The notes beneath the pieces are model-generated. The model made no database searches, was not told the origin of the DNA, and worked only from the letters and a program-made list of their open reading frames with translations. DNA of 6,335 bases from Phycisphaerales bacterium (GTDB lineage Bacteria; Planctomycetota; Phycisphaerae; Phycisphaerales; SM1A02): positions 1 through 6,335 of the forward strand of contig JASMLG010000052.1 of the NCBI GenBank assembly GCA_030748805.1. Reading direction: 5' to 3'. Shown here piece by piece: positions 5,414-6,335 of this stretch; positions within the stretch are counted from its first letter, which is position 1; each line of letters begins with the position of its first letter. The position numbers and the translations under genes were made by a program.

Positions 5414-5419
5414 TTACTC

Positions 5420-5449
5420 AATAAACTATCTCGAGGGAAAGTTTATTTT
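5420..5449 (+). terminator. Probable rho-independent terminator after the mosaic-protein gene
   Basis: AATAAACT (5420-5427) pairs perfectly with AGTTTATT (5440-5447). Inside, an A-A mismatch and three more pairs (TCT/GGA) close a CGAG loop, and a T-rich tract follows (TTTTA, 5446-5449). The stem begins 7 nt after the stop codon. It is AT-rich, so its strength is uncertain. Confidence 0.5.
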
Positions 5450-5472
5450 ATGTGTTGTGTTTCAATTTGATG

Positions 5473-5499: not shown

Positions 5500-5985
5500 A
5501 TGCAAAACGAAGAACGAATTAATGGTTTAGAAACTCAAGTCCGAACACTCAAGAGAATTGTCTATGGGTTTGGATGTCTACTGGTCGCAGGAGTGGTTGT
5601 GTCTGCAACGACTCTGCAAACTGTTCCTGATGTGATTCAAGCAAAGAGTTTTGAGGTAATTAGCGAAAACGGCAAGCCAGTAGTTGTACTTAATTCGCAT
5701 TTACTCGATACAGGCGAAAGCGATGTGAATGAGAGAGTCTATTACGGAAGCATGAGTTCGCTCAATAGTAAGGGCGGTACACTTGTAACCCTCGGTTCTA
5801 ACAACTGCACTGGAACAGGTCAAATTGCTACGCTTAACGGCTACGGTAGGCTCCTTGTTAAACTTGGGTACAAAGTCGATGGCACACCCGGCTTAGCGCC
5901 TGTTGCATATGACAGCGGTCTTGTTACAACGTACGCTATTAACGGTGCGGTCACTTCTAATAATCCTTTGAAGCCTAAGGAATAG
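5500..5985 (+). CDS. Small membrane-anchored beta-repeat protein of unknown function
   Basis: No named family is assigned. The 161-residue protein begins with a short charged amphipathic helix (NEERINGLETQVRTLKRIV, residues 3-21), probably a small coiled coil. One membrane segment follows (about 21-39, VYGFGCLLVAGVVVSATTL), so the rest should face the periplasm. The exported part starts with VPDVIQAKSFEVISENGKPVVVLNS (43-66) and continues with related short units, MSSLNSKGGTLVTLGS (85-100) and IATLNGYGRLLVKLG (109-123), plus a degenerate GLVTTYAINGAVTS (140-153). The repeated pattern is x-LN-x-x-G-x-x-LV-x-LG, as expected for stacked beta strands. I recall proteins with the same layout (coiled coil, one TM, 'AKxFEVxxExGKxxVxLxS', then repeats) in planctomycetes. 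It has its own Shine-Dalgarno sequence and is flanked by terminator candidates, so it is probably monocistronic. Confidence 0.8.
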   Translation: MQNEERINGLETQVRTLKRIVYGFGCLLVAGVVVSATTLQTVPDVIQAKSFEVISENGKPVVVLNSHLLDTGESDVNERVYYGSMSSLNSKGGTLVTLGSNNCTGTGQIATLNGYGRLLVKLGYKVDGTPGLAPVAYDSGLVTTYAINGAVTSNNPLKPKE

Positions 5986-6027
5986 TGTTCGAAGAATCCG
6001 CTTTATTTTGAATGTATTGAAAATGCC

Positions 6028-6054
6028 TCTACCCATCTCAGGGTGGATATTTTA
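6028..6054 (+). terminator. Probable rho-independent terminator after the 5500 gene
   Basis: TCTACCC (6028-6034) pairs with GGGTGGA (6041-6047), seven pairs with one T-G wobble, around the loop ATCTCA. It is followed by TATTTTAT (6048-6055). It lies 43 nt after the stop codon. Confidence 0.5.
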
Positions 6055-6110
6055 TGTGTGCAAGCTTTTAAAAATCACACCTAAACTGATAGTAAATACA
6101 GCGTCACTTC

Positions 6111-6142
6111 AAAAAATAACCCCTTGCAAAAACAAGGAGTTA
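6111..6142 (-). terminator. Leftward terminator-like hairpin with U-tract on the minus strand
   Basis: AACCCCTTG (6118-6126) pairs with CAAGGAGTT (6133-6141) with one C-A mismatch, plus an outer T-A pair, around a CAAAAA loop. The run of six A at 6111-6116 means a minus-strand transcript would read stem-loop then UAUUUUUU, the usual intrinsic terminator layout. On the + strand no T-run follows. It would end a transcript coming from the hairpin array to the right, converging on the 5500 gene. Confidence 0.5.
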
Positions 6143-6163
6143 AAGAGTAAGAGCATAATTCTG

Positions 6164-6218
6164 AAGGGTTCGACGCCGTATTGGATTGCGAAGCAATCCT
6201 ATGCGCCGCGAACCCCTT
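6164..6218. repeat. Long imperfect inverted repeat with perfect GGATTGC-GAA-GCAATCC tip
   Basis: The outer arms AAGGGTTCG (6164-6172) and CGAACCCCTT (6209-6218) pair with one bulged C. The tip GGATTGC (6183-6189), GAA, GCAATCC (6193-6199) is a perfect seven-pair stem. The middle (6173-6182 against 6200-6208) pairs only partly. The tip contains GCGAAGC, known from biophysical work as an unusually stable DNA mini-hairpin. Confidence 0.75.
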
Positions 6219-6235
6219 GTGCGGTCTTACCGCAC
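6219..6235. repeat. Seven-pair hairpin with CTT loop
   Basis: GTGCGGT (6219-6225) and ACCGCAC (6229-6235) pair perfectly around CTT. It begins one base after the previous inverted repeat ends. Confidence 0.75.
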
Positions 6236-6240
6236 CATTG

Positions 6241-6274
6241 CTCAACTACATAACCGTTGGTTATGTATGTTGAG
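6241..6274. repeat. Fifteen-pair hairpin with one bulge and GTT loop
   Basis: CTCAACTACATAACC (6241-6255) pairs with 6259-6274 over all fifteen of its bases, with a single bulged T at 6268 and the loop GTT. Confidence 0.8.
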
Positions 6275-6294
6275 AAATGCACCCGCGAAGCAAC

Positions 6295-6326
6295 TCGAGC
6301 CATGAAAGGTTTCTTTCATGGCTCGA
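6295..6326. repeat. Perfect fourteen-pair hairpin with GTTT loop
   Basis: TCGAGCCATGAAAG (6295-6308) and CTTTCATGGCTCGA (6313-6326) are exact inverted repeats around GTTT. No T-run follows on the + strand, so it is not an ordinary terminator in that direction. GCGAAGC direct repeats lie on both sides. Confidence 0.85.
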
Positions 6327-6335
6327 TAGCGAAGC

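Follow-up and report, generated by a model that had tools for sequence, protein, structure and literature searches.

The question raised by this locus is what a dense run of hairpins, apparently without a gene, represents at the right end of a stretch of Phycisphaerales DNA. The window (the whole stretch analysed, 6,335 nt) encodes, by Pfam, the C-terminal end of a valyl-tRNA synthetase, a phosphoesterase, a GNAT protein and two proteins marked by an N-terminal methylation motif and a dockerin domain respectively, together with a DUF1570-like protein that scores below the DUF1570 cut-off. A preliminary description of the window had reported four short-loop hairpins, and all four are present on the minus strand, with 7–22 pairs and loops of 3–4 nt. 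Hairpin 1 (6164–6217) has 22 pairs with regular mismatches, one bulge and a loop of 3, and is seen in minus-strand folds. Folding also gives hairpin 2 (6219–6235; 7 pairs) and hairpin 3 (6236–6279; 19 pairs), both with 3-nt loops and both variable between species, and hairpin 4 (6295–6326) has 14 perfect pairs and a 4-nt loop. A fifth, terminator-like hairpin (6117–6142, within 6111..6142, minus strand), with TTTTTT 3' of its stem, belongs with these four and brings the short-loop hairpins at the right end of the window to five. It lies at the distal end of the array, reads away from the inferred tRNA gene discussed below, and is the only intrinsic-terminator call in 6100–6335, hairpins 1–4 being uncalled.

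The hairpins are real and lie far beyond chance on either strand (z about −11 to −12). The fold of 6100–6335 has an energy of −101.4 kcal/mol, against −56.4 ± 4.1 for 200 dinucleotide shuffles, none of which is as low (z −10.98). Folding of the minus strand as DNA (6160–6335) gives a z of −12.07, and as RNA (6111–6335) a z of −12.16. The region had also been described as free of genes, and it holds neither a Pfam-supported gene nor an Rfam family at the family cut-offs (one sub-threshold match at E ≤ 10); an 81-aa ORF (6008–6253) has no Pfam match, a 54-aa minus-strand ORF (6081–6245) being outside that test. The neighbouring 161-aa ORF (5500..5985, plus strand), again with no Pfam match, is convergent with the array and lies outside it. 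Two sequence details may be recorded here. The heptamer GCGAAGC, an unusually stable DNA mini-hairpin, occurs three times within 6188–6335, and by eye its complement recurs in the hairpins of other units. A second family of short intergenic palindromes, possibly REP-like and of the form AATAAACT...AGTTTATT, is seen at 5419–5450, and also in L005 (at about 13020–13045), L312 and L350 (at about 230–340), with several copies in genome G005.

The identity of the cluster was solved in related genomes. There are 19 loci related to the window region in the genome collection: L001 is closest (66%), L002–L006, from five Phycisphaerae/Planctomycetota MAGs, stand at 52–55%, and the remaining 13 at 27–33%. 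A search of six relatives with 6100–6335, as the preliminary description had advised, gave strong matches at four places in G005 (E down to 5.8e-18) and two in G001 (E 1.9e-11), whereas each of the other four relatives gave only matches with E > 0.1. An extension to the right, also advised there, was made by way of the relatives. At L005 (in G005), with a valS neighbourhood like that of the window, a tandem array (13065–13598; period 155 bp, 3.4 copies, 99% matches) enters the 3' end of a tRNA-Gly(TCC) gene (13578–13653, minus strand); the four ORFs of at least 200 aa in the next 7.4 kb belong to protease-like, NadA, FAD-binding and beta-lactamase-fold families, and none has a reverse transcriptase domain. 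At L001 (in G001) an array of period 166 bp (2.4 copies, 100% matches) reaches the contig end, and another G001 contig ends 57 bases past the tRNA-Gly gene, inside the start of a further unit. L003 (in G003) has two copies at a contig end, found by eye and by model search, with none listed by Tandem Repeats Finder; the other G003 contig begins inside a unit leading into tRNA-Gly. In both G001 and G003 the array and the tRNA-Gly gene are on separate contigs, both broken within the array, and since contigs end inside it in two of the three array-bearing relatives, such arrays may themselves break assemblies.

Judged by this homology, the window hairpins make up the outermost unit of a tandem array whose period is roughly 150–170 bp, like those found 3' of tRNA-Gly(TCC) in relatives. 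As the window stops inside the outermost unit, its own tRNA-Gly(TCC) gene would lie to the right of the window edge, on the minus strand. The arrays are not general among relatives: L004 has a tRNA-Gly gene and a trailer hairpin with no array, and in G097, G176 and G006 no second tRNA-Gly tail occurs in the ~230 bases examined (this exact-tail check covers 7 of 30 tRNA-Gly loci). An order-level search of 151 genomes drawn from a larger group matched nine, including G001, G003 and G005. The other six matches, all weak, were set aside; two fall in tRNA-Gly genes with no array in the stretch viewed, and four outside the tRNAs called by ARAGORN.

The outermost unit of the array occupies 6162..6335 on the minus strand, its tRNA-proximal side being cut by the window edge. 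It has 70% identity to the G005 units at L005 (E 5.8e-18), and 6148–6219 matches two places in G001 that are 166 bp apart (E 1.9e-11). By comparison with the tails of L005, L044 and L047, 6162..6173 (minus strand) repeats the 3' half of tRNA-Gly from the T-loop on (TCGAACCCTTCA) but ends before the acceptor strand; this last copy stops after TTCA, and the terminator-like hairpin comes next. The copy sits inside hairpin 1, an extended T-arm-like hairpin whose outer stem, AAGGGGTTCG / CGAACCCTT, consists of the 3' T-stem of the tRNA and its complement, and whose inner module (CGGCGCA-stem-loop-TACGGCG) splits the T-loop. Hairpin 1 is kept in L001, L003 and L005, and none of 22 control tails pairs as well. 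A heptamer, GCGGGTG (6280..6286, minus strand), is spelt like the 5' acceptor strand of tRNA-Gly(TCC) and is the complement of the 3' strand, CACCCGC. It is identical in the window, L001 and L003 and reads GCGGATG in L005; 0 of 22 control tails pair as well with it in the window unit, and 16 of 22 do so in the L005 unit. Hairpin 4 is, by eye in L005, L044 and L004, the counterpart of the hairpin directly 3' of tRNA-Gly. The order of a unit, moving away from the tRNA, can thus be read as the tRNA 3' half from the T-loop, the trailer hairpin/terminator (hairpin 4), the acceptor-5'-like heptamer, hairpins 3 and 2, and hairpin 1. The units of L001 have, by eye, a hairpin and T run at the place corresponding to 6117–6142. 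A simple cloverleaf reading for every unit was rejected, as complements are strong in some units only: the complement of the tRNA T-stem is strong (0–1 control tails as good) in 6 of 24 units.

When 181 family genomes were searched with a covariance model built on hairpin 1, seven matched at E ≤ 0.1, namely the Gly arrays of G001, G003 and G005, together with G006, G190, G250 and G274. The last three matches have no tRNA within the 2.4–3.1 kb around them. In G006 the hairpin 1 module stands downstream of the tmRNA gene, with a copy of that gene's 3' end after it, and weaker model matches led to tRNA-Val in G005, to tRNA-Tyr in G001 and, in G004, to a displaced tRNA-Tyr tail. A survey of seven relatives took 91 + 136 tRNA matches (five weak ones left out), amounting to 220 distinct genes; 200 were tested, the other 20 having fewer than 100 bases downstream or no recognisable T-loop. 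The gene's own 3' tail recurs within 600 bp downstream in 16 of the 200, against none when the tail of a randomly chosen other tRNA was used. An upstream control gave 2/200, both being slicing artefacts of genes cut by contig edges. By genome, the repeats number 3/26 in G001, 3/32 in G003, 1/34 in G004, 4/25 in G005, 3/29 in G006, 0/33 in G097 and 2/21 in G176. Two tmRNA genes (G001 and G006) also have their own 3' tail repeated downstream. Further units were seen by eye, below the survey threshold or at contig ends, at Val(tac), Tyr and Met of G001 and Ile of G006, and the Gly units of G001 and G003 are likewise outside the threshold or at contig ends.

The boundary was tested separately, as the tail used for searching already started at the T-loop. 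Upstream of the tail, the copy stops matching within 0–2 bases in 15 of 16 cases; the exception is the Lys copy of G005, which continues upstream of the T-loop (a 6-base run, 9/12). Similarly bounded units, about 75–225 bp long and with no gene, stand behind other tRNA genes and two tmRNA genes of related Phycisphaerales. The combination of array, tRNA adjacency and T-loop boundary is very probably correct. Some neighbouring observations concern tRNA-Tyr and tmRNA trailers. In G004 a hairpin unit bearing tRNA-Tyr tails (contig C93, L214) has no called tRNA beside it and looks as though an integrase element had displaced it, and the tRNA-Tyr trailers of G004 (L431) and G003 (L407) resemble trailers of integrase elements. 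The tmRNA trailers of the clade (L220 of G001, others of L217–L226) have GCGAATT...AATTCGC hairpins, repeated in G001, that are separate from the inserted units.

The fold of some units appears to be under selection. Hairpin-rich stretches (z < −4) make up 20 of 24 units, with the window and Escherichia coli included, versus 23 of 171 other tRNA trailers, the unit stretches being up to 200 nt long and the control trailers 160 nt. In four Asn units, whose mean column identity is 66%, 26 consensus pairs are retained and 94.1% of their cells can pair; 15 of the 26 pairs have changed on both sides. The shuffle mean is 6.7, with 0/500 as high, and 0–3 such pairs remain when partners are slid; the structure was predicted on the same alignment, of only four sequences, which gives a somewhat favourable bias. 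The structural claim rests on the Asn units, since covariation in the Gly hairpin is modest (2 of 22 pairs). The data support the view that hairpins of the Asn units are kept by compensatory change, so that their fold, as RNA or as single-stranded DNA, would be selected. Units of different genes also have end modules in common: 19 of 266 pairs exceed all 40 shuffles, compared with 3 of 266 when one sequence is reversed and about 6–7 expected. An example is TACTCGAGTGGCGC, which occurs in the Val and tmRNA units of G001.

One alternative explanation of the units is a functional RNA, in which the tRNA transcript carries a structured trailer that tRNA-processing enzymes free as small tRNA-like or rtT-like RNAs, kept for regulation; an origin by insertion would not conflict with this. 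The compensatory changes in the Asn units fit it, and so do the terminator-like hairpin found distally on the minus strand of the array and the annotation of the E. coli counterpart as a small RNA, RttR; RtT-family RNAs give Northern signals in Actinobacillus (PMC4986893). Against this, many units have, by eye, a terminator directly 3' of the tRNA, so the rest of the unit may rarely be transcribed, and unit sequences differ greatly even at the same tRNA. The RNA explanation is possible but rather doubtful. The structured noncoding RNA of the preliminary description survives in part, in that related units are under structural constraint, but a free-standing RNA does not agree with an array that runs into tRNA-Gly at L005.

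A second explanation needs no insertion enzyme: tandem duplication in place of the tRNA 3' half and trailer, by replication slippage or unequal exchange. The near-perfect tandem copies of L005 (99%) and L001 (100%) are in keeping with it, and by eye the last copy continues into the trailer in the Asp, Ala and Ile arrays. It is harder to reconcile with copies that start at the T-loop in different tRNA genes. The two origins also differ in the flanks, as an insertion predicts that the native flank lies beyond the last copy. Flanks were compared with those of relatives by local alignment score (the best of 60 shuffles is given in brackets). The flank beyond the last copy of Asp in G006 matches four of six comparators, G003 at 57 (22), G004 at 65 (24), G097 at 35 (26) and G176 at 48 (21). 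Lys of G005 matches two of three, G003 at 51 (20) and G097 at 35 (21), and Arg of G003 one of three, G097 at 80 (18). Pro of G001 is clear in one comparator, G176 at 35 (20), and so is Cys of G001, with G006 at 36 (26). For the tmRNA genes of G006 and G001 the displaced flank scores above all 60 shuffles, in each case in 7 of 8 relatives.

The native flank is thus displaced at seven of the loci tested, and the test is silent or opposite at the others. Displacement is not clearly seen at Asp of G001, Ala, Ile or Val(gac), and with several comparators neither flank matched. The first-copy flank matches instead, or as well, for Asn of G005 against G006 at 59 (20), Tyr of G001 against G006 at 39 (30), Asp of G006 against G176 at 32 (21) and Cys of G001 against G176 at 28 (21); that of the tmRNA of G001 stands above shuffles by 1–2 points in 3 of 8. 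The Asn and Tyr matches count for duplication, but the G006 locus behind the Asn match itself carries, by eye, a unit with a decayed tail copy. Duplication in place is an unlikely source of the units, given the displaced flanks of Asp (G006), Arg, Lys, Cys, Pro and both tmRNA genes. Several loci, though not all, support a unit inserted between gene and native flank, with a displaced tRNA 3' end left behind, and the units probably originated by insertion rather than by duplication.

It has also to be considered that the units are pseudo-tRNAs, decayed from tandem tRNA genes, with a 3' half kept parent-like by gene conversion. The acceptor-5'-like heptamer of the Gly units is suggestive of this, and so are remains of a tRNA body in two cases. 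The Ser(tga) units of G006 (L365) and G176 (L483), which match each other with a score of 90, hold by eye remains of the tRNA-Ser body, like decayed tandem copies and unlike other units, and the Lys unit of G005 holds, again by eye, tRNA-Lys remains. However, the Rfam tRNA and tmRNA models mark only the genes, and no unit at E ≤ 1, in 19 Phycisphaerales loci (the two Ser loci not among them). Decay would not give compensatory change, and the end modules are common to different genes. Taken together this origin is quite improbable. A free-standing ornate RNA or a retron msr/msd, as initially suggested on the strength of the dense hairpins, can be dismissed as extremely improbable, given the lack of an Rfam match at the cut-offs, the tRNA gene entered by the L005 array and the four long ORFs beyond it, none of them a reverse transcriptase.

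On balance the units seem best regarded as gene-less, structure-selected elements of ~75–225 bp inserted at tRNA 3' ends, with the window holding part of a Gly array, a reading to which we give somewhat better than even confidence. The suggestion of a folded-DNA recombination or repeat element was in this respect partly right: the window belongs to a tandem repeat, and several related units bear the footprint of insertion at a tRNA. A unit would enter at the junction of tRNA gene and native flank, which gives the pattern known from site-specific integration at tRNA genes, and tandem copies would then arise by repeated insertion or by recombination between copies. The units may be moved by a recombinase acting in trans, which would act on the tRNA gene at its T-loop and 3' end and would recognise the end hairpin; this we hold to be a little less than evenly likely. 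The units would be tolerated since the tRNA gene regains a complete 3' end with each of them, in many cases along with a terminator that the unit itself supplies. A DNA circle of ~155 bp would be mechanically awkward, a point against this reading. A more far-reaching version, which we offer as a speculation that is more probably wrong than right, is of a class of gene-less integrative elements (~75–225 bp) that colonise tRNA and tmRNA genes and are moved as folded, perhaps single-stranded, DNA by a putative T-loop-acting recombinase, perhaps of the host Xer type, giving arrays with selected hairpins; the same process would also have produced the E. coli tyrT/rtT repeats.

None of the 18 PF00589 matches in the seven genomes lies in a unit. 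Fourteen of them form two families present in all seven, of which the one tested representative each is XerC/XerD-like. In every one of the seven an XerC-like recombinase gene is also seen ~1–1.2 kb from a tRNA gene, tRNA-Lys(ttt) where named (G003:C18, G004:C1, G005:C80, G006:C67, G001:C84, G097:C8 and G176:C42). Tyrosine-integrase genes lie beside tRNA-Leu(gag) in G003 (L507, G003:C124), G005 (L508, G005:C10) and G004 (L510, G004:C9), and beside tRNA-Val(tac) in G003 (L509, G003:C80). The integrase ORF overlaps the tRNA gene in L507 and L509, and a displaced tRNA-Leu tail is present at G004:C72 (L519). The units were judged not to derive from such integrase elements, as the single right end found, which lies in G004, differs from the unit ends. 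A search for a phage or plasmid origin gave only one phage and two plasmid records, with matches of 27–34 query bases. The pattern GCGGCGCAN{10,40}ACGGCGTCGA occurs in at least 120 stretches of viral contigs; these are taken as chance matches, since the same pattern occurs in 24 of the 181 family genomes, of which G005 and G006 are known to carry units.

Among known systems, integron attC arrays presumably come close in form, as they are tandem and made of long imperfect hairpins with unpaired bases. In contrast to these, a unit has no room for a cassette gene, and by eye the attC boxes GTTRRRY / RYYYAAC are not conserved across units. In their ends the units are like the islands integrated at tRNA and tmRNA genes by tyrosine integrases (the Islander class), with an intact target gene and a displaced 3' fragment downstream in the same orientation. 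According to the Islander paper, the ends of such islands are recognised by the target gene, which is regenerated, and by a displaced 3' fragment in direct orientation, and candidates without an integrase or shorter than 2 kb are discarded (PMC4383910). The Phycisphaerales units differ in having ~75–225 bp, no gene and no integrase. With these two filters they would go unlisted, and a class of this kind could have been overlooked. Among open-licence papers, no description of such units in planctomycetes was found. Since there are also relatives without units, their origin by insertion or duplication, their mobility and the selection on their structure become testable.

There is also a close likeness to the repeats of E. 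coli tyrT/tyrV (RttR; Rfam RtT, RF00391), which are also tandem units downstream of a tRNA gene. Those of tyrV have a period of 178 and 3.1 copies, and each unit holds exactly the last 19 nt of the tRNA, a tail that we take to start at tRNA position 58. The E. coli unit shares with those of Phycisphaerales both the T-loop boundary and a complement of the tRNA 3' T-stem. It differs in not being hairpin-rich (z −1.1), a comparison that covers one operon. The RtT model has four matches in the E. coli stretch (132.9–137.5 bits), none in 19 Phycisphaerales loci at E ≤ 1 and none in the window at E ≤ 10, and the Phycisphaerales units are therefore not classed as RtT. The E. coli tyrT repeats are reportedly an old oddity, and we know of no agreed origin for them. 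RtT RNAs come from many E. coli tRNA operons (PMC4986893), which narrows what is new here. What the Phycisphaerales add is the same T-loop boundary beside many tRNA genes and the tmRNA of one clade, and this could help to explain the E. coli repeats.
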